DNA of 64,000 bases from Phocaeicola barnesiae DSM 18169 = JCM 13652 (GTDB lineage Bacteria; Bacteroidota; Bacteroidia; Bacteroidales; Bacteroidaceae): assembly GCF_000374585.1 (NCBI RefSeq), contig NZ_KB894651.1:62001-126000 (forward strand), given 5' to 3'. Positions 10,030 through 62,550 of the stretch are shown here, in pieces. Made by a program: the position numbers and the translations under genes. The notes under the pieces were generated by a model. It was not told where the DNA came from and searched no databases. It worked only from the letters and a program-made list of their open reading frames with translations. The stretch's first letter is position 1. Each line of letters starts with the position of its first letter.

Positions 10030-10127
10030 GTTATTCTATTGATAAATATATAAGGTTATAAAAAGAAAGCCCCGGCAAAATCCAGTTCGGTATTCACCGG
10101 GTCTTTCCCAATTCTACAAATAGCCAG

Positions 10128-12455: not shown

Positions 12456-12486
12456 ATTATTAAATTTACAAAATATCGATTTCTAA

Positions 12487-13695: not shown

Positions 13696-13715
13696 ACATT
13701 TATAGTTTTAAATGA

Positions 13716-14594: not shown

Positions 14595-14680
14595 AACTCT
14601 ATTATTTTTCATAATATAAATATACATTTCCCAATACCGTCACTGCTTTATTATCAATTTCCGGCAGTAAGTGATATCGT

Positions 14681-15511
14681 TCACTTTTCTTTATCTGTCA
14701 CATTGGTGAGGTCATACACTATTTTGCAATATCCATCAGAAATACTACGAGTCGTAGATGGCTGAGGTATGGATGGATTAGTATAAGGTTTAGCTCCATC
14801 CTGATTACCATCAGCCAACCTCCGGGACAGTTTCATCATAGTCTGGATGTAACTCAAAGGCAAATAATTCTTCAAATAAGGATAATGTCCACACCATATT
14901 TTACTGATACCTTCCTCCAGCATCAACTTTTCCATGCGACAACAAGAACGATAAAATGTTTCAATAGGCAACATCGGTCTACATTGCAGCCAAACTTCAC
15001 CTGAGCCAAAAGCGTCACCCGAATAACAATCTCCCCGTTTCCGGTCAAGAAGTACCACAGACCCTGGAGTATGCCCAGGCATTAACTTCACTTCCAACTG
15101 ACGTTCTCCCAAATCAAAGATTTGTCCGTCCTGCAAATAACGAACTTTTCCTTTATAATCTTTGGTACGTTCCTGAATCAATACACTATCATTCCGATGC
15201 ATCCAGACCTCATCAAAATAACCGATACAACCAGCATGATCAGGATGAGCATGAGTAATAACGACATCATAAGGTTTATCAGTAATACTTTCCACTATCT
15301 TATCCAAACCAGCACATCGAGTTCCTGCGTCAATCAACATCGCTCTTTCTGTGCCTTCCAACAAATACATAGTGGTATAATCCCAAGTCTCGAAGACCCA
15401 TGTCTTCTCTGACAATTCAGATACAGTCACCTCATCATTCTTAAATACAACCTGTGCCCACCCTTCCATCAAAGAGAGCAATGCCAATATGACCAATACA
15501 GACTTTTTCAT
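14681..15511 (-). CDS. Secreted metallo-beta-lactamase-fold hydrolase
   Basis: A 276-residue protein with a signal peptide (1-20, ending EGWAQ) and a binuclear metal site: ITHAHPDHAG (H87, H89, D91, H92), MPGHTPGSV, SGDAFGSG and WCGHYPY. This is the standard metallo-beta-lactamase fold, which covers lactamases, lactonases, thioesterases and glyoxalase II-like enzymes. Nothing indicates antibiotic hydrolysis. As the first gene of an operon of esterases and glycosidases it more plausibly opens a lactone or thioester, or cleaves another ester-like bond, in the substrate (inference). A -7 box lies at 15534-15541 and the direct-repeat array further upstream. Confidence 0.88.
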   Translation of the reverse strand: MKKSVLVILALLSLMEGWAQVVFKNDEVTVSELSEKTWVFETWDYTTMYLLEGTERAMLIDAGTRCAGLDKIVESITDKPYDVVITHAHPDHAGCIGYFDEVWMHRNDSVLIQERTKDYKGKVRYLQDGQIFDLGERQLEVKLMPGHTPGSVVLLDRKRGDCYSGDAFGSGEVWLQCRPMLPIETFYRSCCRMEKLMLEEGISKIWCGHYPYLKNYLPLSYIQTMMKLSRRLADGNQDGAKPYTNPSIPQPSTTRSISDGYCKIVYDLTNVTDKEK

Positions 15512-15541: not shown

Positions 15542-15674
15542 ATCCACCATAAGCTATCCGATGGCTCATTCAGAATCATCATTCGAAATCTAATTTTAAC
15601 CGGCCCATCGGAACCTTCAAAAATCATCTTCCAAAGACAGCTTATTTCCGCATACAATATTAATCCAATTAATC

Positions 15675-15764
15675 GTCAAAGAGTGTCCGGTTTATTCAAA
15701 AGGATAGCATCGATGTTCAAAAGGACTTATCCGGTTGTTCAAAAAATAGCATGCTTGTTCAAAA
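15675..15764 (-). repeat. Direct-repeat array, TTCAAAA every 20-22 bp (putative operator A)
   Basis: Heptamers start at 15675 (GTCAAAG), 15695, 15716, 15738 and 15758 (the last four TTCAAAA), at steps of 20, 21, 22 and 20 bases, about two helical turns each. Flanking bases are partly shared (GTTCAAAA in three). AraC-family regulators bind direct half-sites 21 bp apart, so this looks like an activator array for the adjacent operon. Confidence 0.6.
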
Positions 15765-16062: not shown

Positions 16063-16066
16063 CAAG

Positions 16067-16137
16067 TTGGGCTACCTGGATTCGAACCAAGAAAAACAGG
16101 ACCAGAATCTGTTGTGTTACCATTACACCATAGCCCA
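16067..16137 (-). tRNA. tRNA-Gln (CTG)
   Basis: The 71-base minus-strand cloverleaf has acceptor TGGGCTA/TAGCCCA with discriminator A, D arm GTG-TAATGGTAA-CAC, anticodon loop TTCTGGT (anticodon CTG) and T arm CTTGG-TTCGAAT-CCAGG. CCA is not encoded. It is identical to the copy 47 bases upstream. Confidence 0.95.
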
Positions 16138-16184
16138 AGCAAATTTCGATATCCTCTCCGTGAGGACCTCTACTTGTGAATGTG

Positions 16185-16255
16185 TTGGGCTACCTGGATT
16201 CGAACCAAGAAAAACAGGACCAGAATCTGTTGTGTTACCATTACACCATAGCCCA
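16185..16255 (-). tRNA. tRNA-Gln (CTG), second identical copy
   Basis: Same 71-base sequence as 16067-16137, separated by a 47-base spacer. This is the promoter-proximal copy of a two-gene tRNA transcript. Confidence 0.95.
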
Positions 16256-42866: not shown

Positions 42867-44114
<1,248 letters not shown>

Positions 44115-44123
44115 TTATCTCAA

Positions 44124-45524
44124 TTATTTTACATTCAAATCCTGTATATAGGTATTTGCCTGCGTACAAGGTTTCCATTCCGGCAAATCATCTCCATTGG
44201 GATTACCCGTCTTGGCAAAATTTGTCCAGTAAGAAACCATGCGGTCGCTAAGTTCATAATCAGCAGCCTCCATAGGTCTCCAGCATTTATCTAATGTACC
44301 AAACATATACCACAACTCACTGGAATGGAACGCACCTTTCATAGCTCCAAAACCGCCCTTGGGGTCAGGCATATCCTCACCCGGTAAATCACGGCTGAAG
44401 CAATAGACATAAGCCGGCATGCGTCCTTGACGTTCAAGCAAAAGACTCCAATCAACAGCAGCTTGCTTCATTCTGTCCGGTGCGATATCTTCCGAGGTAT
44501 ACCCTATCATATAAGGGATATCCAGTTCCTTGTTCTGTTGTGCCACCTCATAGACCGATTGCTCCAACAGCTGTCCATCCACACAAGGACCATAAGGTAA
44601 TCCACTGAAGGTTTTCTGCTGTTTCATATAATTCATCATTATTTCCTGGAACCGGGCAGCCGGGCAGTTGCGCATTTGTTCCAAAGTTGTACAGCCTGAC
44701 ATGCTCCACATAGCCTTTCCCTTTTCTTCAGCATTTTGCAGAGAGTCTGTAGAAATAATACCTCCTAATCCACCTCCACTCTGTATGATGGCACGTTGTA
44801 TATAACCTTTTGCCATCGGGGAAGAGATTAAAGCCTGTACACTTCCGGCCCCTGCACTTTGTCCGAAAAGTGTCACATTATCCGGATCGCCTCCAAAAGC
44901 AGCGATGTTACGTTTCACCCACTTCAAAGCAGCCAACTGATCGAACAATCCGTAATTACCGGAACCTTTCCCGGCATTTTCGGCTGTCAATAACGGATGA
45001 GCCAAGAAACCGCACATGCCTAACCGGTAGTTCAATGTGACCAAAATAACCCCTTTTTTTGCATACGCATCACCATCAAACTCAATTTCATGTCCGAAGC
45101 CATTCTGGAAAGCACCACCGTGAATCCACACCATCACCGGAAGTCTGCTATCCTTCTTGCCGGCAGCCGGTGTCCATACATTCAGATATAGACAGTCTTC
45201 ACTCATTTCCGGATTACCGTCCTGATAGAATTCTTTCCAATAAAAAGAACCTTCGGTCTGTCCCCCCTGCAATGAAGCGGCGCCGAAACGATCACATTTC
45301 TTCACTCCTTCCCATGGTTGTACCGGTTGTGGTTGCTTCCAGCGTAAATCACCAACTGGAGGAGCTGCATAAGGAATACCTTTATAAACCATCACTCCTT
45401 CTTCATCTATCACTCCTTCAATCTGTCCGCCATCCACTTCAAGTACAAGATTTCGAGTGCACGAAGCCATCAGTGCTCCCCAAAGGAAAGCACAGATGGC
45501 AGTATGAAACAAACGCTTCTTCAT
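44124..45524 (-). CDS. Type-B carboxylesterase, predicted lipoprotein
   Basis: A 466-residue alpha/beta hydrolase of the carboxylesterase/para-nitrobenzyl esterase family. The leader ends in LMASC (Cys22), a good lipobox. Landmarks: GIPYAAPPVGDLRWK, EDCLYLNVWTP, VWIHGGAF (oxyanion hole), LFGQSAGAGS (nucleophile Ser223), and a C-terminal catalytic His probably in GAFHSSELWYMFG. It is somewhat short for the family (often about 500-550). Its ATG overlaps the GH3 stop by four bases (ATGA), so the two are coupled. A second, frameshifted member lies at 56836-58491. Confidence 0.88.
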   Translation of the reverse strand: MKKRLFHTAICAFLWGALMASCTRNLVLEVDGGQIEGVIDEEGVMVYKGIPYAAPPVGDLRWKQPQPVQPWEGVKKCDRFGAASLQGGQTEGSFYWKEFYQDGNPEMSEDCLYLNVWTPAAGKKDSRLPVMVWIHGGAFQNGFGHEIEFDGDAYAKKGVILVTLNYRLGMCGFLAHPLLTAENAGKGSGNYGLFDQLAALKWVKRNIAAFGGDPDNVTLFGQSAGAGSVQALISSPMAKGYIQRAIIQSGGGLGGIISTDSLQNAEEKGKAMWSMSGCTTLEQMRNCPAARFQEIMMNYMKQQKTFSGLPYGPCVDGQLLEQSVYEVAQQNKELDIPYMIGYTSEDIAPDRMKQAAVDWSLLLERQGRMPAYVYCFSRDLPGEDMPDPKGGFGAMKGAFHSSELWYMFGTLDKCWRPMEAADYELSDRMVSYWTNFAKTGNPNGDDLPEWKPCTQANTYIQDLNVK

Positions 45525-47881
45525 CGTTTTACCATATCATTTTCAGCAATCTTATAAAGAGGTCTCATGGCATCGTGTACTTTTACTTTCTGAGACTTGG
45601 TCACTTTCTGTTCTACCGTACACCGGACATCAGCCGAAGAAGTGGCAGCCATCCACTGATATGTACCTTTAGCCAATTCCCAAGAACTGTTCTTCTCATT
45701 AAACGAAGCCATATCCATCAGTTTCCAGGACAATGTTACAACTTCCGTTTCGCCCGGCTGTAACAACTTGGTCTTTGCAAAAGCCTTCAGTTCCTTGGCA
45801 GGTTTCTCGAGACCACCTTCCGGAGCCTTTACATAAAGTTGTACAGACTCTTTACCCGCACATTTACCTGTATTGGTCACAGCCACCTTCATTTCGCAAT
45901 CTTCGGCATCCATATCCGATGATACTACTTCAAAACCAAATGTTGTATATGACAAGCCATGTCCAAACGGATAAGAGACTTCCTTACCGAAAGTATCGAA
46001 ATAACGATACCCTACATAAATGCCTTCTTCATAATCAGTAAAATCGACATTACGTTCCGGTTCCTTCGGTTTTTCTTCCTTCTCTTTCGATTTGAAATTC
46101 ATGCCACTGCCCATAGCGAAGGAAGGCATCTTGAACTCGTAATCATACGGGAAGTTAGCGTCAGACGGCGCATCACCATACTTCACAGCAAAAGTCATAG
46201 GTAAGTGTCCTGAAGGATTTACCTTACCAGTCAACACATCAGCAACACAATTGCCGACTTCCTGACCAGGCTGGAAAGCACATAAGACTGCATCTACCTG
46301 GTTTTTCCATGAAGCGGTCTCAACCGGGCTACAGATATTCAGGACAACCACGACCTTCTTGCCTGCAGCATGATAAGCCTCAGCCACCTGCTTGATGAGG
46401 GCTGTTTCATTCTCCTTCATGTAGAATTCCTCTACACGTCTATCCGAAGCCTCACCACTAGTACGTCCAAAAGTAAGGATAGCCACATCGTTGTTCTTCA
46501 CCTGAGCCGCCAATTCCTCTGCTGTAGGAACAAATTCTTCTGCACGCTTAAGAGGGGTCAACGAGAACGGAGGTCTGCCATTCGGGTAAAGACGTTTCTG
46601 TTCATCGGCCAGATGCTTTTTATACTGCTTAATCAAATCAGCATCTACAGTATAGCCGGCATTACGCATACCTTCTACCAGCGAAACAGTATAATAACCT
46701 ACTCCTGTGCTGCCGAAGCCCATTCCGGCAGGTACCATATCATAGGAAGTAGTTCCATACAAAGCTACATTCTTAATACCGGATGCCAGCGGTAAAACAT
46801 CACGGTTATCCAACAGGACAATACCTTCTGCTCCTATGGTACGGTCAACTTGTGCATGAGCCTTCAAATCGGTTTCATTGGCATATTCATAATCGGCGAA
46901 TGTATGACACTTCACCACCAGTTCCAAAACACGTTTTACATTCCGGTCCAGAACAGCCTCATCCAACGTACCGTTCTGTACAGCTTCCAGGATAGCCTTA
47001 TACTGACGATCCTGCCCCGGCTGCAACATGTCATTTCCTGCTTTCATGGAAGTTACAGCATCCTTACCGGCATTCCAGTCGGACATTACAACTCCCTTGA
47101 AACCCCATTCATCACGCAGGATGTTCTGAGTCAAATCAATATCCTCACAGGTATATTTACCATTCACCTTATTATATGAAGTCATAATGCTCCACGGTTG
47201 TGATTCTTTAACAGCGATTTCAAAACCTTTCAGATAAAGCTCACGCAACGGACGTTGTGCTACTCTTGAATCGTTGTTGTTACGGTTCGTTTCCTGATTA
47301 TTTACAGCAAAATGCTTCAAGCAAGTCCCTGTCCCTTGACTTTGAACACCGTTAATGTAACCTGCCGCTATTTTTCCCGTAACTACCGGGTCTTCTGAAT
47401 AATATTCATGATTACGTCCACACAACGCATTACGCATCAAGTTTGCCCCTGGAGCCAACAGGACATCCATACCATAATCCTTCACTTCTTCTCCCAGTGC
47501 AGCTCCTACCTGAAATGCGGCATTAGGGTCGAAGGTCGCGGCTACTGTTGTACCTGAAGGGAACTCTGTAGCATAATAAAACCGGCTGTCAAAATCACGT
47601 TTTACACTCATGGCCAAGCGATGCGGCCCGTCAGCCAAATAAACTGAAGGGATTCCTAGACGAGGAATATCGTAGGTACGTCCCGCTGTACCCGGAAACT
47701 TGACTCCATCGCCCATAGACATTCCACAGCCGATTACCATGCGTACCTTTTCTTCCAAAGTCATCTGACCGATCACTTCATCAATGTTACCGGCATTCAG
47801 TTTCACCTGTGCCTGTGCGGCAGGGACAGCCATGCATAAGGCTGCAATACCAATGCCTACCATTCTAGTAATGCTTTTCAT
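45521..47881 (-). CDS. GH3 beta-glycosidase (locus B, second operon)
   Basis: A 786-residue exported GH3 enzyme with signal peptide (ending VPAAQA). N-domain: RNALCGRNHEYYSEDP, LKHFAVNNQETNR and the nucleophile in VVMSDWNAG (D268). C-domain: LTFGRTSGEASDRRVEEF and later YEEGIYVGYRYFDTF; a fibronectin III-like domain follows (VTNTGKCAGKESVQLYV). It is the paralogue of 10128-12455, but lacks that protein's lipobox, so it is probably soluble in the periplasm. It is the first gene of its operon, behind a 296-base gap with a leader hairpin and a direct-repeat array. Confidence 0.93.
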   Translation of the reverse strand: MKSITRMVGIGIAALCMAVPAAQAQVKLNAGNIDEVIGQMTLEEKVRMVIGCGMSMGDGVKFPGTAGRTYDIPRLGIPSVYLADGPHRLAMSVKRDFDSRFYYATEFPSGTTVAATFDPNAAFQVGAALGEEVKDYGMDVLLAPGANLMRNALCGRNHEYYSEDPVVTGKIAAGYINGVQSQGTGTCLKHFAVNNQETNRNNNDSRVAQRPLRELYLKGFEIAVKESQPWSIMTSYNKVNGKYTCEDIDLTQNILRDEWGFKGVVMSDWNAGKDAVTSMKAGNDMLQPGQDRQYKAILEAVQNGTLDEAVLDRNVKRVLELVVKCHTFADYEYANETDLKAHAQVDRTIGAEGIVLLDNRDVLPLASGIKNVALYGTTSYDMVPAGMGFGSTGVGYYTVSLVEGMRNAGYTVDADLIKQYKKHLADEQKRLYPNGRPPFSLTPLKRAEEFVPTAEELAAQVKNNDVAILTFGRTSGEASDRRVEEFYMKENETALIKQVAEAYHAAGKKVVVVLNICSPVETASWKNQVDAVLCAFQPGQEVGNCVADVLTGKVNPSGHLPMTFAVKYGDAPSDANFPYDYEFKMPSFAMGSGMNFKSKEKEEKPKEPERNVDFTDYEEGIYVGYRYFDTFGKEVSYPFGHGLSYTTFGFEVVSSDMDAEDCEMKVAVTNTGKCAGKESVQLYVKAPEGGLEKPAKELKAFAKTKLLQPGETEVVTLSWKLMDMASFNEKNSSWELAKGTYQWMAATSSADVRCTVEQKVTKSQKVKVHDAMRPLYKIAENDMVKR

Positions 47882-47992: not shown

Positions 47993-48056
47993 CGGAACCA
48001 TCCGATTCCGATAGCGTAAAATTAGCGGAAACGGCCGGCATAGATTATCCGATTTG

Positions 48057-48125
48057 TGCAAAAAACTAACACAGATGTTCAAACGGCCGGCTCATTCACT
48101 GAAATGTAGAACCTGCCATTCAAAA
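48057..48125 (-). repeat. Direct-repeat array with 20-21 bp steps (putative operator B)
   Basis: Heptamers start at 48057 (TGCAAAA), 48078 (TTCAAAC), 48099 (CTGAAAT) and 48119 (TTCAAAA), at steps of 21, 21 and 20. They are more degenerate than in the array upstream of locus A but have the same period and the same distance from the start codon (176-244 bases). No -7 box was found in this gap. Confidence 0.5.
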
Positions 48126-48177
48126 AATACAGTTATGGCAAACATCATTCACAAGTTGTCATAACTGTACTGTTCAT

Positions 48178-49293
48178 TTAATCTTTAAATAGCTTTTGCG
48201 CCAAATTGTATAAATCATTACGCCAGGTATGCCACGTATGTCCGCCCGGAGCTTCCGAATATTGATACTTAATGCCCGCCGCATCAAACAGCTTCAGCAT
48301 AGCTTTACAATTCTTATAAGCAATATCCTCCGGACCTCCCTGAGTAAAATGTAATACACGGACCGTCTTATTGAAATCAGCTGCAATTTTCTTCAGATAT
48401 GCACCTCGTTCCGCATACATTTCCGTATCGTCTTCAAACCAGCCTGAGCTCAAGACCCACAGGTAACCGAACTGATGATAATGATTCAATCCTGCTTCCA
48501 ATGTCTCCATTCCTCCCATAGACAAACCGGCTAATGCACGATGATCTTTATCTGTCAGCACCCGATAATTCGCCTCAATAAAAGGAATAATATCATTCAT
48601 CAAATCTTCAGCAAACAAAGGGACCTCGTCCATCAAATTTTCCGACGGAATAGTCCCGTTCGGCATTACTACAATCATCGGCTTGATTTTACCTTCAGCC
48701 AATAAATTGTCCAATATATTGCCAGCACATCCTACAGTGGGCCAGGAATTATCTGTATCACCCCCACCATGAATCAGATACAAAACAGGCAGATTATCCG
48801 AACCTTTTTCATATCCAGCCGGGGTCCATACATGTAAACGACGAGTAGTCTTCAAAGATTTGGAATAGTAATAGCGTTGGGCAATCGCGCCATGAGGTAC
48901 CTGCTTCATTGCAAAGAAATCATTCCCATCAGATTTTACACTCATCAACGCCGATGTTTCACTTGCCTCTGGAGATTTGGGATCAAACACCTTTATCCCA
49001 TCAACTAAAAAATGATAACGGTAAACACCGGCTTTCACTTCCGGTACCTTTATAGACCAAACGCCGGCGTCCGATTTCACGACTTTCAACTCTTTTCCCC
49101 ATGGAACAATATCACCGCCTATACGAACATTCTGCGCCTGAGGCGCATAGATACTTAGCACCACACTACCATCCTTTTCAATCCGAACAGATTGAAGCGT
49201 ATCGTTAGGTGTAGGAGCCATTCGCCATTGTGCCTTCAACGGAAAGCATAAAAAAGCCCCCAGTGTCCAAACCAATATTTTTTTGTATTTCAT
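48178..49293 (-). CDS. CE1-type esterase with N-terminal E-set domain (SusCD operon)
   Basis: A 371-residue secreted esterase, more distant from the other two E-set esterases. A signal peptide (about 1-22, LCFPLKAQ) leads to an E-set domain (about 35-120, VVLSIYAPQAQNVRIGGDI) and a catalytic domain with YLIHGGGDTDNSW, AGLSMGG (nucleophile Ser258), GGPEDIAYKN and the His in GGHTWHTWR. It is the last gene before the 296-base gap, 81 bases after the GH3 gene, and so probably ends the SusC-SusD operon. It likely deacylates a periplasmic oligosaccharide or glycoside. Confidence 0.87.
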   Translation of the reverse strand: MKYKKILVWTLGAFLCFPLKAQWRMAPTPNDTLQSVRIEKDGSVVLSIYAPQAQNVRIGGDIVPWGKELKVVKSDAGVWSIKVPEVKAGVYRYHFLVDGIKVFDPKSPEASETSALMSVKSDGNDFFAMKQVPHGAIAQRYYYSKSLKTTRRLHVWTPAGYEKGSDNLPVLYLIHGGGDTDNSWPTVGCAGNILDNLLAEGKIKPMIVVMPNGTIPSENLMDEVPLFAEDLMNDIIPFIEANYRVLTDKDHRALAGLSMGGMETLEAGLNHYHQFGYLWVLSSGWFEDDTEMYAERGAYLKKIAADFNKTVRVLHFTQGGPEDIAYKNCKAMLKLFDAAGIKYQYSEAPGGHTWHTWRNDLYNLAQKLFKD

Positions 49294-49374
49294 AACCTTC
49301 TACTTTCTTTTAATACAGGAATTGTATAGAAATCCAGTCCGAAGACCAAATTTCCATACAATTCTTTACGGCAA

Positions 49375-51567
49375 TCATTTATCACCAGTCAATTGTACTT
49401 CTCCTTCCAGACGAATGTCTGCGGAAGAAGCGCCTACCAATAACCTAACCTTACCAGGTTCAACAACAAATTTATCTTGTGCTTCATTCCAGTATCCGAA
49501 ATCAATCTTAGGAATCGTGAGAACAACTTCTTTCACTTCGCCGGCAGTAATCGGGACACGAGTAAAAGCACGTAACTGCTTCATCGGTCGTTCAACCTTA
49601 GAATCCGGGTAACTGGCATAAAGCTGCACGACCTCTTCGCCGTCGCGTGAACCTGTATTTTTCACCAGGACTTTCACTGTAACATGCTCATCATCTTGTT
49701 GGATGGATTCTATCTTCTGATAATCAAAGGTAGTATAGCTCAAACCATATCCAAACGGATAAAGTACATCACCTTTATAATACATGTATGTACGTCCGTT
49801 CCTAATATTATAATCCATCATATCAGGCAAATCAGTAATATCTTTCACCCAGGTCTGTACTGTCCGTCCGGCAGGATTTACCTTACCAAAAAGAACATCG
49901 GCCAAGCCATTACCCTGTTCCTGGCTGCAGTGAGTTATATGTACAATGGCAGGAAGATGTTCCTGACTCCAATTGATGGTGTACGGGAAACTACTAACCA
50001 ATACCAATACCGTATTTGGATTCACCTTAAAAACCTGCTTTACCAAATCTTCATCGGGCAACATCAATGACTTTCTGTCTACTGCTTCACGCCCATCGCT
50101 CGGAACCGGACAAAAGAACCAGTCCGGACGCGTACCGAATGGATGGTTACCCACACATACCAAAGCAACATCAGCCGCAGCCGCAGCTTTTACAGCCTGG
50201 TCAATCCCGTTATTGGGCGCATAAATAACTTCAGTATCCTTATTTACGGCCTCACGTATACCTTTCAATATGGTAGTCTCGTATTCAGGAGTTCCACTGT
50301 ACCAATCCTGTACAATTTTACCGGCGTATGGTCCAATGACTGCAATCTTTTTCAGTTTCGAAGCATCAAGCGGCAACAAACCTTGACTGTTCTTTAGAAG
50401 AACGACCGATTTGGCAGTAACCTCACGTGCCAATTGGCGGGCATCTTCCTGTTGATATGGAGGTATTTCATTCGGGTCCGTTCCAATCGTACGATAAGGG
50501 TCCTTGGAATCTTTTCCATCCAACAAGCCCAGTTTCAATGCGACATACAAATTACCTCGGATAGCCTTATCAATATCGGCCTCAGTCAAATAACCTTTTT
50601 CTAAAGCCTCCTTAATATATGGAAGATACTCATCCAAGAATTGTCCTGTAGTAGCCTTCACCACCGCTGCAGCCCCTTCTGCCAAGGTCGGAAAAGCGTG
50701 ATGAGAGTTTACCAGCAGCTTCAATGCGCCACCATCGGTACAAATGATACCGTTGTTCCCCCATTTCTTACGGGTAATCTCCTCCAGGCAAGGATGAATA
50801 CACATCGCGATGCCATTCCATCCATTATACGCTGCCATAAATGCCCTGCTACCGGCTTCCGTAATACCTTTATAAAAAGGATACGCATAATATTCATAGA
50901 ACAAGCGCATATCGAAATCACTTGAAGTACTGTCTCGTCTATCTTCATTGCTGTTAGCCAAGAAGTGTTTCATCAAAGCAGCAGTACGCCAGTAGCGCGG
51001 ATTATCTCCCTGTAAACCTTCAATGTTGGCCACGGTCAGACGAGCAGTCAGAAACGGGTCCTCACCAAAACTTTCTTCCGTACGTCCCCACCGTGGATCG
51101 CGTGCCAGATTGGCGTTTGGAGCACGCATAACCAATGCTGTCCGCTTGTTTTCGGGACGCTGCATATAATAACGTGCCTCGATTGAAGCCTGCTCCCCTA
51201 CTTTCTTCACCAAATCAACGTCCCAAGTAGAACCGAGTCCATAAGATTGAGGGAAAATGGTAGTCGGACAATCCTTAGGAATCATACGTCCGTTTTCTCC
51301 CTTCTCACGTCCTCCCCAAGCTGCCGGTCCCCCCAAGGCCAAGCCATGCAAACCCTCATGATGTCTGCAGGGGAGAATTCCTAAACGGGGAACAGCCAAA
51401 TCACTTCCCAACAGGGTTATCTTCTCATCAAGCGTAAGTTCCTTGAGTAGAAGATCAATGCGCTTCTCATCCGGAAGTTTCATATTCTGAAACTTATAGG
51501 CATCTTGTGCATAAGAGGATAAACATACCATTACGCACGATACCAAGAAAAATGATTTTATCTTCAT
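49375..51567 (-). CDS. GH3 glycosidase, beta-xylosidase-like (SusCD operon)
   Basis: A 730-residue GH3 enzyme. The frame is open 34 codons further upstream, but the ATG at 51567 begins a proper signal peptide (MKIKSFFLVSC, ending LSSYAQ). N-domain: NANLARDPRWGRTEESFGEDP, LMKHFLANSNEDRR and the nucleophile in IICTDGGA (D278). This CTDGGA form is typical of the beta-xylosidase-like GH3 branch rather than the TDW form of the other three GH3 proteins in the window. A C-domain and a fibronectin III-like domain (LVKNTGSRDGEEVVQLYASYP) follow. Activity on xylosides is inference. Confidence 0.92.
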   Translation of the reverse strand: MKIKSFFLVSCVMVCLSSYAQDAYKFQNMKLPDEKRIDLLLKELTLDEKITLLGSDLAVPRLGILPCRHHEGLHGLALGGPAAWGGREKGENGRMIPKDCPTTIFPQSYGLGSTWDVDLVKKVGEQASIEARYYMQRPENKRTALVMRAPNANLARDPRWGRTEESFGEDPFLTARLTVANIEGLQGDNPRYWRTAALMKHFLANSNEDRRDSTSSDFDMRLFYEYYAYPFYKGITEAGSRAFMAAYNGWNGIAMCIHPCLEEITRKKWGNNGIICTDGGALKLLVNSHHAFPTLAEGAAAVVKATTGQFLDEYLPYIKEALEKGYLTEADIDKAIRGNLYVALKLGLLDGKDSKDPYRTIGTDPNEIPPYQQEDARQLAREVTAKSVVLLKNSQGLLPLDASKLKKIAVIGPYAGKIVQDWYSGTPEYETTILKGIREAVNKDTEVIYAPNNGIDQAVKAAAAADVALVCVGNHPFGTRPDWFFCPVPSDGREAVDRKSLMLPDEDLVKQVFKVNPNTVLVLVSSFPYTINWSQEHLPAIVHITHCSQEQGNGLADVLFGKVNPAGRTVQTWVKDITDLPDMMDYNIRNGRTYMYYKGDVLYPFGYGLSYTTFDYQKIESIQQDDEHVTVKVLVKNTGSRDGEEVVQLYASYPDSKVERPMKQLRAFTRVPITAGEVKEVVLTIPKIDFGYWNEAQDKFVVEPGKVRLLVGASSADIRLEGEVQLTGDK

Positions 51568-51836
51568 GCTGACTTGAATTAAATTTGTAAACCACATCAA
51601 CAGGAGCCAGTCGCCCCAATTCCGTTGATATACTCCATAATCATATATCTTTACTTCATCCAATCTCACTTACCCCATGAATCAGAGAAGTCAAAAATAC
51701 GATTTATTATCCAGAGTCCAGGTCGCCTTTACCTGTCAGCCTTGACGGAACAGGCTATTATCACTCCAGGCCAATCAGGTAAAAGCAACACAAGAAATCC
51801 TTTCAAACCATTCAGGAACAAGTACCTGACAGCGCC
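51568..51836 (-). other. Intra-operon gap between susD and GH3
   Basis: No gene is seen. TCAGG/CCTGA at 51812-51829 and a longer TTACCTG/CAGGTAA pair near 51732-51786 can fold just after the SusD stop. Such hairpins often reduce expression of genes behind susCD (inference). Confidence 0.4.
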
Positions 51837-53522
51837 TTAATCCCAACCTGGATTCTGTTTCAATACACCATTGGAAAGCGTTATCTGTGTTTCAGAAATC
51901 ATGGAAAGGCCTTTTTTATCAATAATATCTTGAGCATTAATTGTTATTTCCGCAGGGGCACCTGCCGTCAAGACCGGAACATTCTGAACCGCCAGTTTAT
52001 TGGCTGCATATTCAATACCTTGACGTAGCAAGTCCCAATAATTGATTCCTTCAAAAGCGAACTCAAAACGACGTTCCTCCATGATATTCTCCTTTGTGGC
52101 AGCTTTGGCAACATACAACGGGGACAAACTTCCGTCTTTACCTTTGAAAGCACGTTCACGAACTTTATCGAAATAAGTCTGAGCATTAGGGCTTCCCAGT
52201 TCGGCAGCCATCAGCAAGACATCAGCATATCGTACCAGTACATAATCCTGATGATTGCTAATCATAAGATTTCCTGTACCGTCTTCTTTGGCCGCGCTCT
52301 GGCCGTTAGTGAAGGCAAGCGGAGCATATTTCTTGATATAATAACCTGTATATTCCTGCGATCCGCTGATACATACGCCAAAATTCGGATTGTCTTCCAG
52401 TCCTTCTCCCTTCGCATCAATGATTGAAGCCTCACGACGGGTATCCCCTTCTTCATATTCCTCAACGAACAGCGGATTTACCGGAGCATACCCCCATCCG
52501 TACATATAGGGAGCAATTCCAGTGGTCGTACGCATCGCAATATTTACTTGCCAGGTATTTCCATCGTTGTTACCTGCATAGTCTCCCGTAGCTGTACACT
52601 TTACAGCCAGAACGGTCTCACTATTTCCATCGCCTATATAATCACCGTAAAGGGTTTCCACATCGCCTACTTCAGCCTTCCCTGCACAGGCAGCCGGCCA
52701 TAGACGTCTGTATTCCGGTACCAGTTCGAACTCGCCGGAAGCAATGATATCTTCTACAGCAGCCAAGGCCTCTGCCTTAGTCACATCGGCAGGCTCAGTA
52801 CCATAATAACCGGTATAATACAGATAGGCACGTGCCAGTATGGCTTCAGCCGCATATTTAGTAATATGCCCATCGTTGGTAGATGCCTGACTCTTAGGAT
52901 AGGCATCGGCCGGAATATTTTCAATCGCATATTTCAAATCACTAAATATCAATGCATACACATCGGCCGGGTCTGCCTGAGGAACATTTTCATTAGTAGG
53001 CTCTACCACCAAAGGTATATTTCCGAACTGCCGCACAATATCGAAATACAGGATAGCACGGATGGCACGGATGGCACGACATTCACCCATGTATAAATTA
53101 CGCTTGCTGTCCGACTCGTTCCACTGTATTCCTTCTTCACGGGTTATCAATTCATTACAACGGTAAATACCTGAATAATAACCAGCCCAACTGCTACCGG
53201 TCGAAGATGGGTTCTGTGACAAGTCGAAACGGTCTATCAGCCGCATGCCGTTACCGTCAGCAGCCCCTGATCCTCCAAAACATTCATAACCCATAATCTC
53301 CGACATGACCAGGAAATTAACCGGTGAATTACAGGTTGCCAATCTGAAACCGTCGTAACAGCCCAACAAAGCCCGATAAGCATCCTTTTCCGTCTTATAG
53401 AAATTACCGGTAGTAGATTCTGTCTTGGATTCTACATCCAAGAAACTTTGAGTGCAAGATGTCATTCCCAGGCCTAAGCATAAAAAACTTGCCCCTACTA
53501 TATTGAAATTTATCTTTTTCAT
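51837..53522 (-). CDS. SusD/RagB-family nutrient-binding outer-membrane lipoprotein
   Basis: A 561-residue surface lipoprotein that forms the lid of the SusC transporter and binds glycans at the cell surface. Lipobox MTSC (Cys23) is followed by FLDVESKTESTTGNFYKTEKDA (in two parts), the usual SusD opening. TPR-like helices (ECRAIRAIRAILYFDIVRQFGNIPLV) and the C-terminal SusD/RagB signature EERRFEFAFEGINYWDLLRQG (in two parts) confirm the family. It lies 20 bases after the SusC stop on the same strand. Confidence 0.97.
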   Translation of the reverse strand: MKKINFNIVGASFLCLGLGMTSCTQSFLDVESKTESTTGNFYKTEKDAYRALLGCYDGFRLATCNSPVNFLVMSEIMGYECFGGSGAADGNGMRLIDRFDLSQNPSSTGSSWAGYYSGIYRCNELITREEGIQWNESDSKRNLYMGECRAIRAIRAILYFDIVRQFGNIPLVVEPTNENVPQADPADVYALIFSDLKYAIENIPADAYPKSQASTNDGHITKYAAEAILARAYLYYTGYYGTEPADVTKAEALAAVEDIIASGEFELVPEYRRLWPAACAGKAEVGDVETLYGDYIGDGNSETVLAVKCTATGDYAGNNDGNTWQVNIAMRTTTGIAPYMYGWGYAPVNPLFVEEYEEGDTRREASIIDAKGEGLEDNPNFGVCISGSQEYTGYYIKKYAPLAFTNGQSAAKEDGTGNLMISNHQDYVLVRYADVLLMAAELGSPNAQTYFDKVRERAFKGKDGSLSPLYVAKAATKENIMEERRFEFAFEGINYWDLLRQGIEYAANKLAVQNVPVLTAGAPAEITINAQDIIDKKGLSMISETQITLSNGVLKQNPGWD

Positions 53523-53542
53523 ACCTCTTTTACTTTTACAAA

Positions 53543-56500
53543 TTAGAATTTAAGATTAACACCTACCAGCACAGTACGTGGACGTGGATAATATCCGAGG
53601 TCCACACCTGATACCCATGCATTCGAATCGGCACCATAACCGACTTCCGGGTCCATACCGTTATATTTGGTAATAGTCAGCAAATTCTGAACCTGGAAAT
53701 ACAAGCGAGCCTGTTTGAACGCTTTGAAACGGAACAGTTTAGAGAAATCATATCCCAAGGTCAAAGTACTGAGACGCAAATAATTGCCATTGTGTATATA
53801 CAAATCAGAGAATTCCCAGTTAATGTTAGAATCAGTTACACGAGGTATCCTGTTGCTGGTTCCTTCACCATGCCATCTTTCCAGAATTTCCACTGTATAA
53901 TTAGATTGAGGACGAGTGTGGTTACGATAAGACTGGACAATCTGATGTCCGAAAGCGCCATTGGCAACCAACGACAGATCAAATCCTTTGTATTCAAAAC
54001 CGATATTGAAACCAAGGGTAAAATCAGGGATACCATTACCCAGATTCACCTTATCGTCATCATTAATAACTCCATTGTGATCGACATCTACATAACGTAC
54101 ATCACCGGGTTGAGGGTCAGCCTGAAGAATGCCATTACCCGCAGCACGCCATTCTTCGATTTCTCTTTCATTCTGGAATATTCCAGCAGTCTGATATCCC
54201 CAGAAATAACCGATAGGTTCTCCATTCTCGGCACGGTAAAACTCAGCAGCATTGTTATACAATTCGTTACTACTACCATGAATGATACCGTCTTCGGTCG
54301 GGATTTTGCCCACCTTATTCTTATTGAACGCTCCATTCAGACTGATGTTGTATGAAAAGTCTTTACCGATATTATCATTCCAGGTCAAGGCAAGTTCTAC
54401 ACCTGTATTCTTCACATCTCCTCCATTGATGTAAGGAGCACCGGTACCGGTTGTATTCAGAATAGGAGCCTGGAGCAACCAGTCTTTTGTACTTTTGATA
54501 TAAAAATCGAAGTTTATGCCCAAACGGCTAGCAAAAAAGCGGGCATCAAATCCGATATTAGTCTGTTCTGAAGTTTCCCAGGTAAGTGCTTCATTCGACA
54601 AACGACTAGGATAAGCTCCCCAGTTAGTACCCAAAGCGCTGGCTTCTACCGCAGTACTGTTTCCTGAAATACCATAAAAATAATGCACATTTGTCATCTT
54701 GATAGGAGCCAGATACTGATAATTGTCAATATTCTGATTACCTACCTGTCCCCAGCTGACACGCAGTTTCAAGTAATCCAGCCAACTGCTCGTATTTTTC
54801 ATAAACTTTTCATTCGTCAGAATCCAACCGGCAGATATGGAAGGGAAGAATCCGTAACGGTGTCCACGTGCAAAACGGGAAGAACCGTCCGTGCGCACCG
54901 TAGCATTCAACATATAAGTTTCTTTCCAGTTCCAACCCAAACGGGCAAAATAAGATACTGTACGTGTTTCGTCCAACGGATAACCGCTAACGCTCATACC
55001 TTCAGCTGTAGAAGAACCGGTAGCATTTGTAATGAAAGCATGGTCCCAATTGTCAAAACCTTCTCTTAAACCACCGTTGGAACCGCTTAAATAAGTACCG
55101 CCATACTGATAGGACTCCATACCAATCAAAGCGTTGAAAGCATGGTCCTCTATATTCCAGTCATAAGTAGCCGTATTTGTCCAGGTCAGTTCCAGTGTAT
55201 GCCGCATATTCTGAGTCACACTGGTACGTGTATTACGACTTTGTGAACCGAACTGATACAGCGGTGAGAAACTACGATATTCGTTTGTATAGTAATTGGC
55301 ACCAAATACTGTTCTGATTTTCAAATTCTTAATCGGTTGTAACTCTGCATATACGTTTCCAGCAAAGAAAGCATTCTTATTTTCATTGTTGGTTGCGGTC
55401 ATCATAGAACCGTATGGGTTACCGTCTTCCGGGTTCCAGTCAGAATTAGATGTATCATTATAAGGTGAATCGTAAATATTGTTGTCACTGTAAATCGGAA
55501 CAAAAGGAGCAGCACTGTAAGCACCACGCAAGGTATTGTTATACTGGCCTCCTACTCCGATACCTGTATTTCTTCTGTAAACGAAGCTCACCTGTTCACC
55601 GACCTTCAGCAAGTCCTTAAACAGATTATGCTCTGAATTTACACGGAAATTATAGCGGGAATAGTTGGACACATCTTCACCGCCGATGATACCTTCCTGA
55701 GACATATATCCCATCGAAATAGAATACTTGGAAGTAGATGATCCTCCTGACACACCTAACGTATAGCTCTGTAATTTAGCATTATCCTTAAACATCGCTC
55801 CCAGCCAGTCAGTATCATACAGATTTCCATTGGCATCATAGATTGATTTATAGCTACTCCAATCATATGGAGTTGAGTTACCGCTGTTGAGGCGTTGTTC
55901 ATCCATAATCATCATGTATTGCTCTGTATTCAGCAGCTCGGCCTTCTTTACGACATTCTGGACACCATAATATGCATCGAAAGAAACTTCGGCCTTTCCC
56001 TCTTTACCGCTCTTGGTCGTTACCAATACAACACCGTTAGCAGCCTGAGCACCATAGATTGCGGCAGAAGCTGCATCTTTCAGGATATCAATACTTTCAA
56101 TATCGGCAGGATTCAAGTTAGAGATATCGCCACGCACTCCATCAATCAAATATAGAGGTTCTGCATTACCGACGGTTCCAAGTCCACGAATACTGACTTT
56201 CAGTTCAGAGCCAGGTTGCCCTGAAATAGAAGCGATATTCACACCAGGGGTCTGTCCTTGCATGGCCTGTAAAGGATTCGTTGTATTCAACTTAGCGATA
56301 TTCTCACCTTTCACCTGAACGGTAGCTCCTGTCACCAGTTTTTTCTTCTGTACTCCATAACCGACAACTACTACCTCATCAAGTACCTCATTATCTTCCT
56401 CCAATACGACATTAATTGTAGAGGAAGTACCGACTTTGACAGACTGAGTCTTGAAGCCAATGTATGAGAAGACCAGTGTTTCTCCCGCATTGACATCCAA

Positions 56501-56725
56501 AGAATACTTACCGTCCAAATCCGTAATGGTTCCCATAGAAGATCCTTGTACTTGTACACTAACACCAATCAACAGAGAACCATCAGTAGCAGAAGTAACT
56601 TCACCTGTTACCTTTTTTGCCTGAAGTGTTGCGGCCTGTAAACCGGTAACCGCCAAAACAAACAATAACCATACAACACAGCATAAACGCATACCTGTGT
56701 TGCTTTTCTTACATGTTTCTCTCAT
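53543..56725 (-). CDS. SusC/RagA-family TonB-linked outer-membrane transporter
   Basis: A 1060-residue importer. The ATG at 56725 is preferred to an in-frame TTG two codons upstream. Order: signal peptide (about 12-34), carboxypeptidase-regulatory-like domain (about 38-115), a TonB box with DEVVVVGYGVQKK, the plug (about 135-245, with LNPADIESIDILKDAASAAIYG divided by its turn and GVVLVTTKSG), then a 22-strand barrel with the C-terminal aromatic end. No STN domain is present, so sensing through an anti-sigma factor is unlikely and control by the neighbouring HTCS fits better. It forms a transport complex with the SusD protein downstream. Confidence 0.97.
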   Translation of the reverse strand: MRETCKKSNTGMRLCCVVWLLFVLAVTGLQAATLQAKKVTGEVTSATDGSLLIGVSVQVQGSSMGTITDLDGKYSLDVNAGETLVFSYIGFKTQSVKVGTSSTINVVLEEDNEVLDEVVVVGYGVQKKKLVTGATVQVKGENIAKLNTTNPLQAMQGQTPGVNIASISGQPGSELKVSIRGLGTVGNAEPLYLIDGVRGDISNLNPADIESIDILKDAASAAIYGAQAANGVVLVTTKSGKEGKAEVSFDAYYGVQNVVKKAELLNTEQYMMIMDEQRLNSGNSTPYDWSSYKSIYDANGNLYDTDWLGAMFKDNAKLQSYTLGVSGGSSTSKYSISMGYMSQEGIIGGEDVSNYSRYNFRVNSEHNLFKDLLKVGEQVSFVYRRNTGIGVGGQYNNTLRGAYSAAPFVPIYSDNNIYDSPYNDTSNSDWNPEDGNPYGSMMTATNNENKNAFFAGNVYAELQPIKNLKIRTVFGANYYTNEYRSFSPLYQFGSQSRNTRTSVTQNMRHTLELTWTNTATYDWNIEDHAFNALIGMESYQYGGTYLSGSNGGLREGFDNWDHAFITNATGSSTAEGMSVSGYPLDETRTVSYFARLGWNWKETYMLNATVRTDGSSRFARGHRYGFFPSISAGWILTNEKFMKNTSSWLDYLKLRVSWGQVGNQNIDNYQYLAPIKMTNVHYFYGISGNSTAVEASALGTNWGAYPSRLSNEALTWETSEQTNIGFDARFFASRLGINFDFYIKSTKDWLLQAPILNTTGTGAPYINGGDVKNTGVELALTWNDNIGKDFSYNISLNGAFNKNKVGKIPTEDGIIHGSSNELYNNAAEFYRAENGEPIGYFWGYQTAGIFQNEREIEEWRAAGNGILQADPQPGDVRYVDVDHNGVINDDDKVNLGNGIPDFTLGFNIGFEYKGFDLSLVANGAFGHQIVQSYRNHTRPQSNYTVEILERWHGEGTSNRIPRVTDSNINWEFSDLYIHNGNYLRLSTLTLGYDFSKLFRFKAFKQARLYFQVQNLLTITKYNGMDPEVGYGADSNAWVSGVDLGYYPRPRTVLVGVNLKF

Positions 56726-56835
56726 ACTCAATTAGTTAAGGTTAATAATATCCAAAGTAATGTATCTCAAATCCGTTTCATGGCCTGGCTTCAACCAGTC
56801 AGACCATGAAACAAAAAGACTGATAGAAAAGCATC

Positions 56836-58491
56836 TTATTCGGAAAGAGACTTACGGGCCTCTCTATCCGGATCGTATACTACCTTACATTCATCATTCA
56901 GCATCATTGTGGCCCCCTTCTCGGCTGTATATTCAGGCCATTCCGGAAGACTTGCACAACTAGGATTACCGGTACGCATGAAACTTAACAAGGCATCGGT
57001 CATCTTGATAGAAAGATCGCGCGGACGTTTACCACCGCCGGTATGAGTCAGCATCAAATCTGTATTCTTCAGCCAAAAACAGATATCCAGACAATGGAAC
57101 GCACGCATACGTCCATCAAACAAAGGAGGATTCCACCCGAACCATGCGAGATAAACAGGAGCAGCCTGAGTCGCTTTGGCATTGGCAGTAGCTATCACCT
57201 TATCACGGGCGCTCATAATCAAGCCTAACCGTTCAATAGGCTTTTTGTCTGGAAACGCCTTTTCATAAGCAGCAACAATCCCCTCTCCATTACCGCCTTT
57301 CAGTTTGTTCACCCATTCTACCAGCTGTTTCCGGTCTATTTTCTCCAATTCAGCATTGTCACGGCTTATAGAGAACTCACACGTTGTGGTACAGAACAGC
57401 ATAGGAACCTTACTGGACGGAGCCTGTGCATCCGAATAAAAAATATCCATCGGAACATGGAAACCATCACCCACCGGTCCAAAGGCTCCACGCATCATTC
57501 CATTTCCTCCGTTCTGTTCGTTATACTTAGCCGCTGCACGATTAGCCAAAGCAATATAACCCAGCCATGGCATCTCTTGAAGTTTGTTCATTTCAGAGGG
57601 TTTCAAGCCCGCTTCTTTCAATATAAATTTCCCCAAAGAAGAACTGTAGTTCTTATCAATGGCTCCCGTGGTATTCCCACTTAATGCAACTGCCTTATGC
57701 ACAAGCCCTTTTGTTTCAGCCATAGCCACTAAAGACTTTGGCGCCACCACCAGACTGTCCCATGATAGTTACATTATTCGGATCGCCTCCGAATTGTTCT
57801 ATATTTTCGTGTACCCATTTCAAACCTGCTACCAAATCCAATATACCGACGTTACCGGACTCGGCAAATTTCTTGTTATCCACCCCTGAAAAATCACTGA
57901 AACCGATAGGACCCAGCCGATGATTCATTGATACAAACACAATATCGCCATAACGGCTGATATTTTCCCCTTTATAACCGTCCTGTTCAATAGCATTCCC
58001 ATTTGTAAAGCCTCCGCCATGAAGCCATACCAACACCGGACGTTTCTTTCCGTCGGTCAATCCTGGTGTCCATACATTCAACATCAGGCAATCCTCACTT
58101 ACGTCATAATAATTCCAATGGTCTGTAAACGTACTGTAACTGTTACGGTATTTTCCTTCCGTAATCTGAGGTGCCGTGTCACCCCAAAATACAGCCGGTC
58201 GGATTCCCTCCCAAGGTTCCGGTTCTTTAGGTGGCATAAAGCGGTTCTCACCGGCAGTACTGGCTCCATAAGGAATTCCACAAAAGGTATATACACCTCT
58301 TAATATATACCCTTTACCTTTCCGTACTTGGTTTGCGCAATCGCAATGGAATCACCGATGAATAACTGTTGCTCATCCTGTACATCCACCTTCTGTTCGG
58401 CCTTTCCCGAACATCCAGTAAGCCCACACAACAAGGTGCCCAAACAAAGTAAGGAAACACCTTTCGTCAAACTTAAAATGCTTGTTTTCAT
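56836..58491 (-). pseudogene. Type-B carboxylesterase lipoprotein, two frameshifts
   Basis: Three consecutive frames together give one carboxylesterase of about 550 residues. The ATG at 58491 opens a leader with lipobox LTGC (Cys27). The first frame stops at 58300 after KYGKVKG; the family's next residues (YILRGVYTFCGIPYGAS) continue in another frame, as if one base were lost near 58310-58314. The second frame carries EDCLMLNVWTP, VWLHGGGF and the nucleophile motif GQSGGGAK, and fails near 57735-57742 (one base gained or two lost). The third frame resumes with SLVAMAETKG and runs to the end. Without repair no active enzyme is made. It is the first gene of the SusCD operon, divergent from the HTCS. 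Confidence 0.85.
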
Positions 58492-58498
58492 AGTTTTC

Positions 58499-58712
58499 CC
58501 CCTTTTAATTAACACTTATAAAGGTAGGAAATAAAGGAGAAAAAAGCTTTTCATCTTCTTGACGGCTCTTATCAACAATTACAAATGCACTTGTCAATTT
58601 CTTTATAATAGTTTTCAAAATCTTCATTTTCTCCTTAAATGCATTTTTACTGGTACTTTTCTTGGAAAATTTACCTATTCTACCTAAACTTGCAATTGAA
58701 AAACACACCGAC
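58499..58712. other. Divergent intergenic region between the carboxylesterase and the HTCS
   Basis: It holds no clear -7 box on either strand. A weak series of TCAA-like heptamers at 58571, 58593, 58614 (TTCAAAA) and 58634 shows steps of 22, 21 and 20. A 10-bp inverted repeat AAGGAGAAAA/TTTTCTCCTT lies at 58534-58543 and 58627-58636. Confidence 0.35.
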
Positions 58713-61700
58713 ATGAGAAGCTTCCTTTATTTGATATTCTACGCCTGCATAACATTACTGGCTACGCCAAAATCCAGTCTGTATGCCCAAGCATTTTTGT
58801 TTGGGAACATCTCAAGTAACTTCATCACTTCCTTTGCTGAAGACTCCCAAGGATATATCTGGATAGGAACCAATCATGGTCTCAACCGGTACAACGTTCC
58901 AATTATGCCATCTTCTATGCGCAAAAAGATTCAACGGCCTTAAACAGTGACTATACTTCAAATCTATTGTTTGATTCTGACCAGCGGTTATGGATGTCGA
59001 ACGAATGTGGCTTATGCGTTTGGGAGAACAACAGGTTCAGGCATCTCCAGCAGGTAGGATTCAATCCCATCGGCCGTATTCTGGATCTGGACAGAAACTC
59101 ACTCATCATCACAGACCGGAAAGGTATTGCCAAAGTCAACAAGCACACCCTAAAAGAAGAAGTCTACTTTTCCAAGGAAGGAATGGGTATCATACGGCCA
59201 ATCATCATTTCTTCCGAGCAACAGATATGGACAGCCAATACACAGATTCATGCAAACAAAATAAATATCCTCAATAAGGATTTGAAGCTATTGCAGACCA
59301 TCAGTTGCCCCCCTGATGTCAGCATCCAGCATCTTATGGAGGACAAACAGAAAAGAATGTGGGTAACAACAGACCAAGGACTATTGTGCTACGATGTCCG
59401 TTCCAAGAAACGATTGGAAATTCCTTTCTCCCTGAACCAACTAAGCAGACAGAAGAGAATACATTTCCTGCAGCCTTATCAGCAAGGCGGATTACTTATC
59501 GGTATAGCCAATGAAGGAATCTATTATTACAACAACCAACAGGACAGCCTGCTCCATATCCATACCCATCAGAAATTAAAAGACAAGACCTATGTATGCT
59601 ATATCGATTCACATAACGGGATATGGCTGTCTAATCAAAAGGATGACTTCCAATATTATCCGGCCCAATTGACATACAGCAATCTTTCCTCCGTACAGGA
59701 ATCCATGAAAGACCCTTTCATCAAAGACCTTGCTTTCGATCAGGAGGGCTTTCTATGGATACGCAGCAGTAAAGACATCATCTGTTACAATATACAGTCC
59801 GATCAGATTGTGTCTCATTGGAAAACAGATCTCTTTTTTGGAAATCTGTTCATAGACAGCCGCAACGATATCTGGATTATAAATAATTATTTAGAAGTTC
59901 GACAGTATTCCACCCAACAGGGAAAACTAAACCTGAAACGGACCTATTCATTTCCGAACAATGTGTTTTCTATCAGTGAAGACAAATCGGGAAGAATATG
60001 GGCAACCCTATCAGACCGCTTTGCCATCCTGACCCCTAATGGAGACTTTACCTATCAGTATGTCCCTAACGGAATCTCTTTCTCTCAACTGAGGACCTTG
60101 AAACCGACACGGAGCATGATCCTGTTCACAATCTCCAACGGTATCTATAAGTTCGGAGACGACCAGCAGTTCATACCTCTGGACAGTTTGTTCGTAGCTA
60201 ATCCCAATACAATCACGGTAGACCCCAAAGGTACCTATTGGATTGGTACCTACAACACGGGATTCATCAAATATATCCCTCAGACCCATGAAATCAAACG
60301 ATTTGACACAACATCCGGACTGATTGAAAACAATATAAAATCAGTCATCGAAGATAAGAACGGAAACATCTGGTTCAGTACTTCCACCCATATCACTAAA
60401 TATGATGTACAAAACGACATTTTCTCCTGCGTTTATGACAAACGTTTCACAAAAGGTAACCTTTATGGAATAAACTGTTGTGCCATAGCCCCTAACGGTG
60501 CCATTTACTTTGGAGGTTCTGGAGGTATTACCGTTGTATATCCTGACAAGCAAGCCGAAGAAGCCGAAGAAATTCCACTCAACCTGGACCTTGTCATCGT
60601 AGGCAATCAGGTTATCCGAAATCTTCCGGATCGTCTTCTGCTTGACTATCGTGACAACATGATTACATTCTGGTACTCTGGACTGGATTTCAAATATGGA
60701 GCCTCACTAAACTATGCCTATCAATTGGAAGGATTCGATAAAAAATGGATCAATGCAGGGACAAACAAGCGGGTGACGTATTCCAACCTACCCTCAGGGA
60801 ACTACACGTTCAAAGTAAAAGTCAGAAAGCTCAACGGAGAATGGGGGAAAAACGAGCTGAGCATGAATATACATATCCAGCCCGCACCTTGGAAAAGCCC
60901 ATGGGCCATTACGTCCTATTGGCTGTTGGGTATCGCACTTACCGGGCTGTCCATCTGGATTATTGTACGCTGGAGGGTACAGCAGGAAAGACTTGCACTC
61001 GCTGAACGGCAGAAAGAAATGAACCAGGAACACATCGATTTCGTAACAAACATTTCACACGAGTTCCGTACTCCGCTGTCACTCACCTATGCTCCCCTCA
61101 AGGAATTAGTACACAACGTTTGGACGAAAGCAGCCGCCAACTGCTGAACACCATGCAGCGGAATGCCGAACGGCTACTTCAACTATCACGACAGATTGTC
61201 GATTCAAACAAGAGTGAGAAAGAAGAAAAAGAACTACACGTAACATCCGGAAACATCGGAACATTCATCTGTTCTTTGACCGAAAATTTCCAGTTCATTG
61301 TCCACCAAAGAGACATCACGCTGGAAGTCCGGCATGAAGAAGTAGAGGACGGATATTTTGATGCGGAAAAGATAGAAAAAATACTCTATAACCTGATCAG
61401 TAATGCCATCAAATATACGCCTGATGGTGGACACATCACTGTATACATTCATACCGACAAGCAACATGCGTACATCGAGGTCAAAGATACCGGCATAGGT
61501 ATCCCACCCGAAAAAAAAGAAAACATCTTCAAACGTTTCAACCGACTCGATACCAAAATGAATGTGGCCGGATCGGGTATCGGCCTACACTATGCACAAC
61601 AGTTGGCTCATCTACATAAAGGAAGCTTTACATATAAGCCCAATGTGCCACAAGGTTCCTGTTTTATCGTAGAGTTTCCTATCCACCGGGAAGCATACCA

Positions 61701-62550
61701 CAAAGACGAGTTCGCCGATAATACATCTTTTTTTACTACAACTTCAATACTCCCTAATCCGTCCAGTACCGACCAGTCCTCCAAAGAGAAAAAGGCAACT
61801 CTGGTAATAGCTGAGGACAATATGGAGGTACGCAATTACTTGCAGAGATTGTTAAATCAGGATTACCATATCATGGCGGTATCCAATGGAGAAGAAGTGC
61901 TGGAATGCCTGGCTTTGAATGTGCCGGACCTCATACTAAGCGATATAGTGATGCCTCATAAAGACGGCTACGAATTATGCCGGATCATCAAAGCAAGTAC
62001 TGAATGGGGACACATTCCAGTCGTTCTGCTCACAGCTAAAAGTGACACCCAAAGCAACATTCAAGGATTAGATTGTGGCCCAGACGCTTATGTAGGTAAA
62101 CCTTTCGACCCGTTTTACCTGAAAGCGGTAGTAGAAAACCTTTTAGCCAACCGGCAAAAAATACAGCGAATCATCCAGAATCTCACTTCCGGACATATTT
62201 CCCAAGAAAAGATACACGAAACCATGCTGAATGAGCATGACCATACTTTTCTGGAGAAACTTCATGCACAGCTGGATCAGCACCTGGACGATGAGGAGTT
62301 CAGTATCAATCTACTGGCCAAGGAACTGGGGATGAGTTACAGTAGCCTGTATGCCAGAATCAAATCACTCACCGGACAGACACCGCAGAATTTCCTCATC
62401 ACTTACCGGATGAATACAGCCATGCAGCTACTCAAGTCCGGCAATTATACAGTAAGCGAAGTATGTTACAAGGTAGGGGCTTCCTCACTGGCTAACTTCT
62501 CACGGAGCTTTAAACGGCAATTCGGTATTCCACCGAGTGAGGTTCAATGA
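58713..62550 (+). pseudogene. Hybrid two-component system regulator (HTCS), two frameshifts
   Basis: Three frames together encode one HTCS of 1279 residues: 3838 bases plus two missing bases make exactly 1280 codons. Order: signal peptide (MRSFLYL, ending LYAQ), periplasmic Reg_prop propellers, a Y_Y_Y domain (YAYQLEGFDKKWINAG), a membrane helix, a histidine kinase (SHEFRTP phospho-His, NLISNAIKYTPDGG, GIGLHYAQQLA), a receiver domain (phospho-Asp in LILSDIVMP) and a C-terminal AraC-type HTH. Frame breaks lie at 58891-58898 (NRYN before the expected GSNYAIFYAQKDS) and 61113-61120 (LKELVHN before LDESSRQLLNTM), both inside ACAACGTT. The domains otherwise look intact, so errors in the assembly are possible. 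It would sense the imported sugar and activate the local operons. Confidence 0.88.

Follow-up and report, generated by a model that had tools for sequence, protein, structure and literature searches.

The 64-kb stretch of the gut bacterium Phocaeicola barnesiae DSM 18169 analyzed here (64,000 nucleotides, referred to as the window) carries two groups of GH3 and CE1 genes, locus A and locus B, each of which contains a repeat array on the minus strand (Table 1).

Table 1. Features of loci A and B in the window
Feature	Position	Strand	Description	Evidence
Array A	15673..15764	minus	four strong units, fifth weaker	
-7 box TAATATTG of locus A	15655..15662	minus	102 bp from unit 1	
Locus A operon	7543..15511	minus	MBL-fold protein, CE1, CE1, GH3, GH3	
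Array B	48057..48125	minus	four units of TTTTGAACA-type HTCS operator, one degenerate	matrix, shuffles, genome profile
-7 box TAATTTTA of locus B	48017..48024	minus	101 bp from unit 1	
GH3 (B6)	45521..47881	minus	first gene behind array B	
Carboxylesterase (B7)	44124..45524	minus		
CE1 esterase (B8)	42867..44093	minus		
Hairpin and T run	48123..48174	minus	after upstream CE1, terminator-like; T run merges with unit 1	
Proximal locus B	48178..58497	minus	carboxylesterase (broken frame), SusC, SusD, GH3, CE1; outside array-B unit	
ACTGACAAGCG-type array	58555..58619	minus	divergent promoter of window HTCS and proximal locus B; different operator	
Window HTCS	58714..62550	plus	frame breaks near 58896 and 61108-61120; improbable as regulator of arrays A and B	

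The strong units of array A start at 15764, 15744, 15722, and 15701, with steps of 20, 22, and 21 that are common to this array and to most arrays of relatives. The weaker fifth unit at 15681 agrees with the extent of 164-253 bases before the start given in an initial annotation of the window. Two tandem tRNA-Gln genes lie directly upstream of locus A (16066-16255). Four congeners have retained the tRNA pair together with rsfS and ftsH, but the locus A genes and those beyond them were not found there within ~10 kb. Locus A sits at a variable boundary, possibly an insertion site. The MBL-fold protein of this locus matches part of an open frame of 818 residues in relatives (L191:9821-12277 and L193:10013-12469), which could be a fusion.

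Array B consists of the minus-strand heptamers TTTTGAA (48125-48119), ATTTCAG (48105-48099), GTTTGAA (48084-48078), and TTTTGCA (48063-48057). The second (ATTTCAGTG) is degenerate, with 4/7 letters matching, so the array has three good units and one poor one. The initial annotation had placed it exactly, with its units 176-244 bases ahead of the GH3 ATG at 47881. Its steps of 20, 21, and 21 give the average spacing of ~21 bp that characterizes HTCS direct repeats. A unit matrix of nine bases, made from the four strong units of locus A only and thus blind to array B, gave the four units 28.4 bits. This was rank 2 on both strands of the 64 kb, where locus A alone scored higher and the best unrelated site had 19.9 bits. 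None of 3000 dinucleotide shuffles of the array-B intergenic region matched its score, and none of 2501 single-base shuffles gave a strong array whose box was correctly spaced. The array at 48057-48125 is therefore real and more than chance, and a chance T-rich rhythm as its source was ruled out by the blind matrix, the shuffles, and the genome search described below, in which it took third rank.

The promoters behind the two arrays are built alike. Box TAATATTG resembles the published -7 consensus TAnnTTTG (PMC7366714), and TAATTTTA is one base away from it, its final letter being A. Array B thus lies upstream of the GH3 start at 47881 and close to a TAnnTTTG-type box, as is expected of an HTCS operator. 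The distance of 102 bp between unit 1 and the box in locus A recurred in B. rodentium, in two promoters of B. muris, and in L089, L044, and L049; it was 101 bp in locus B and 100 bp in C3, the contig with a third site (see below). In three-unit arrays the box lies at 81-82 from unit 1, that is, nearer by one unit. These data support the view that arrays A and B are the same type of operator with the same promoter geometry. A simple promoter and terminator scan of the window, built for E. coli-type promoters and short loops, listed nothing.

The hairpin ahead of array B (fold z-score -2.85) is missing from that scan because its loop is long. Its terminator-like form and its T run leading into unit 1 suggest that array B probably starts a three-gene unit, GH3-carboxylesterase-CE1. 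The carboxylesterase-SusC-SusD-GH3-CE1 genes of locus B have their own, different promoter. It had been proposed that the array is the operator of the whole locus B operon; with a terminator-like hairpin before it and only GH3-carboxylesterase-CE1 behind it, this does not hold, and array B probably does not govern the SusC-SusD genes of locus B.

To search the complete genome (3.62 Mb), we used a sequence-only promoter profile of nine aligned promoters, all taken from other genomes. Exactly three sites were found at E<0.01: locus A (7e-13), contig C3 (3e-7), and locus B (0.0036). The fourth-best site, C1:276971 (E=0.2), was left out; it had no relative of the reference set nearby and matched without the -7 part. 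The same operator is therefore present at separate loci: contig C9 has two of the sites, separated by ~32 kb, and C3 has one. The site on C3, which was outside the view of the initial annotation, lies between an intact HTCS gene (261726-265775; 1349 residues, with the full HTCS domain set) and a divergent carboxylesterase-SusC-SusD-CE1 operon. With the unit matrix the C3 array was at noise level (16.2 bits), and it was distinct only under the full profile.

In a family search of 301 genomes, matches at E<=0.01 occurred in 47. The surroundings were read for all matches at E<1e-5 outside this genome; the weaker ones may include chance matches. Every match at E<1e-5 adjoins a C3-type HTCS, in a recurrent layout HTCS-array-(carboxylesterase)-SusC-SusD-CE1-GH3. 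Relatives of the GH3 were also fetched and then scanned for arrays, and several carry TTTTGAACA arrays. In B. muris the contiguous order is HTCS-array-SusC-SusD-MBL-HTCS-array-COest-SusC-SusD-GH3-CE1s-GH3(A4)-GH3(A5). One cluster thus unites the genes of locus A, the MBL-fold gene among them, with the GH3 of locus B (78% to B6), and it has two arrays as well as two HTCS genes. The gene order of B. rodentium is similar, and in two congeners, one of them P. coprocola, HTCS-array-carboxylesterase-SusC-SusD-CE1(s)-GH3 is contiguous. In one genome (G350; L193, L194, L038), a single stretch with several arrays carries orthologues of genes of all three loci (locus A, C3, and locus B). In two others (G075 and G330), a GH3(B6)-CE1(B8) operon lies apart from the main cluster, at ~15 and ~69 kb, and has a promoter match of its own.

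Two variants were noted among these sequences. In P. coprocola (L122:9966-13027, genome G154) the B6 orthologue is cut at its start (the match begins at residue 231, or the earlier residues are missing) and is followed by a carboxylesterase; it looks like a remnant without a promoter. At L192:2419-2481, within the same cluster, a CE1 gene is preceded by an array TTTTGAAGG/TTTTGAAGG/TTTTGAAGA, which is a variant form of the operator.

No array was found before the GH3 in the syntenic locus-B orthologues L036 and L037, nor before the same GH3 in L039, and array B was rejected as a conserved feature of locus B. The genomes of L036 and L037 hold C3-type HTCSs and arrays at other places. The placement of array B is thus lineage-specific. 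As for the conservation of the heptamers, the lack of which the initial annotation had named as refuting its reading, the outcome is mixed: the operator is kept before orthologous genes in many genomes and is missing at the exact spot in L036 and L037 and before the same GH3 in L039. These array-less orthologues, together with the poor second unit and the lowest score of the three genome sites, could mean that array B is a decayed, non-functional remnant of an operator, or a fortuitous look-alike. We consider this unlikely: its -7 box lies at the expected distance, a terminator-like hairpin directly precedes it, and only two sites in the 3.6 Mb score better under a profile blind to this genome.

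The identity of the regulator was approached through the DNA-binding domains. The C3 HTCS shares 63-78% identity in this domain with HTCSs that adjoin TTTTGAACA arrays, and the operator lies in its own divergent promoter, so that this operator goes with one group of HTCSs. The window HTCS is the nearest one to locus B, its protein is of the right regulator class, and the initial annotation had named it as the regulator of the arrays. Its DNA-binding domain, however, is only 34-41% identical to those of array-linked HTCSs and about 74-77% identical to that of the L039 HTCS. A ACTGACAAGCG motif learned from arrays in L036 and L037 had its best match in the window at 58619-58555, in the divergent promoter of the window HTCS (28.0 bits; the next had 16.1), and a strong match in the divergent HTCS promoter of L039. 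The promoter of the window HTCS and those of its kind in relatives thus carry ACTGACAAGCG, and its frame is broken twice. Control of arrays A and B by the window HTCS is accordingly highly improbable, and the matching regulator is most likely the intact HTCS predicted on C3. Stretch 48125-48063 was not among the best window sites for the ACTGACAAGCG motif, by which array B does not rank as a ACTGACAAGCG operator. Stretch 58548-58620 had early been suspected as a further TTTTGAACA array from the unit matrix; the ACTGACAAGCG motif explains it better. With two classes of domains and two motifs, two HTCS classes appear to meet in locus B.

Around this promoter, four frame breaks fall within 3.4 kb (57734-61120) in two divergent genes, the carboxylesterase and the HTCS. 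Those of the carboxylesterase are near 58309-58330 and 57734, and most of this gene is 80-90% identical to a relative. The breaks reflect either recent inactivation or a local assembly error.

Both HTCSs might act on the locus-B GH3, the C3 HTCS at the array and the window HTCS by read-through from its own promoter, since the genes are on the same strand with a gap of 297 bp and the hairpin may fail to stop transcription. This is doubtful, as the window HTCS appears broken and a hairpin with a T run intervenes. Somewhat less doubtful, though still tentative, is a reading of locus B as a hybrid caught in rewiring, with the proximal genes under the local broken HTCS and the distal GH3-carboxylesterase-CE1 with the operator of the HTCS on the other contig. 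The distal genes are found elsewhere behind ACTGACAAGCG (L036, L037, and L039) and behind TTTTGAACA arrays (L038, in G350). If this were true, two HTCS regulons would have exchanged promoters, and part of a PUL would thereby stay under control while its own sensor decays.

Our preferred reading is that the arrays are operators of one HTCS regulon that probably extends over C3, locus A, and distal locus B, with the C3 HTCS as its most likely regulator. The array would serve as operator for a hybrid two-component regulator (HTCS) of the type known from Bacteroides polysaccharide utilization. Each ~21-bp unit would comprise TTTGAACA and a weaker block ~10 bp on, and the two helix-turn-helix motifs of a single AraC-type DNA-binding domain would contact it. 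Several HTCS monomers, aligned on one face of the DNA, would then activate a promoter with a -7 box ~100 bp from the first unit. The regulator would be the intact C3 HTCS, which adjoins its own copy of the operator and the divergent carboxylesterase-SusC-SusD-CE1 operon. The regulon would have at least three units: C3 (sensor, uptake, and esterases), locus A (MBL, CE1, CE1, GH3, and GH3), and distal locus B (GH3, carboxylesterase, and CE1), whose co-induction by an inducer would be predicted.

Arrays A and B match because both were apparently once in one gene cluster. Since the counterparts are contiguous in relatives, the present layout would most likely have arisen from a split ancestral cluster, the parts of which kept or gained the operator, and the three present loci most likely descend from that one cluster. 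The relatives that keep the genes in one cluster with the same arrays make one split regulon, as proposed in the initial annotation, the best reading. Of that proposal, the common operator, the geometry, and the clustering of the genes in relatives stand; the window HTCS as regulator and the whole of locus B as the operon do not. The sequence comparisons lend good support to a regulon that is divided among several loci.

With respect to function, comparison with solved structures related the GH3 proteins to beta-glucosidases and one CE1 protein to ferulic acid esterases; a reasonable guess is that glucose would be freed from phenolic or esterified glucosides. The MBL-fold protein had no solved relative at E<=1e-8, and keyword searches for the substrate found no paper on the GH3/CE1/carboxylesterase gene set.

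PUL regulators are usually assigned by nearest neighbor. In this case that choice is probably wrong: both the operator sequence and the DNA-binding domain indicate a sensor encoded on a different contig. A blind promoter profile, which finds the operator in front of orthologous genes in many Bacteroidaceae, offers a concrete means of mapping scattered HTCS regulons. The most interesting part is the possible mixing of two sensors within locus B, where the sharing of a single PUL by two sensors could be put to the test.

Direct-repeat HTCS motifs, distant regulon members, and the control of a second locus have already been published (PMC3878776, PMC4855328). In B. thetaiotaomicron, HTCS motifs are direct repeats of 21 bp on average, their grouping follows that of the DNA-binding domains, and several regulons have members far from the rest (HTCS_Hep with BT4675, HTCS_Rgu-1 with BT4187-85; PMC3878776). 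The regulon proposed here resembles these in its ~21-bp direct-repeat operator, in similar domains going with similar motifs, and in its far-off members. The likeness of TTTTGAACA to the 16 motifs described there is one of repeat type and spacing (PMC3878776). Whereas those repeats have two sites (PMC3878776), the arrays described here have three to five units at a fixed distance from the -7 box. In B. xylanisolvens XB1A, an HTCS mutant on xylan showed that one HTCS controls PUL 43 and part of rPUL 70 elsewhere (PMC4855328). The control of its own locus and of part of a second one is what is predicted here for distal locus B; unlike that system, ours comprises GH3/CE1/carboxylesterase genes at three loci and is predicted from sequence. 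Also close are the clusters of B. muris, B. rodentium, and other Bacteroidaceae (L085, L087-L089, L152-L162), with orthologous genes, the same operator, the same -7 spacing, and a C3-type HTCS; there the cluster is mostly contiguous, whereas in P. barnesiae it is split over three places.
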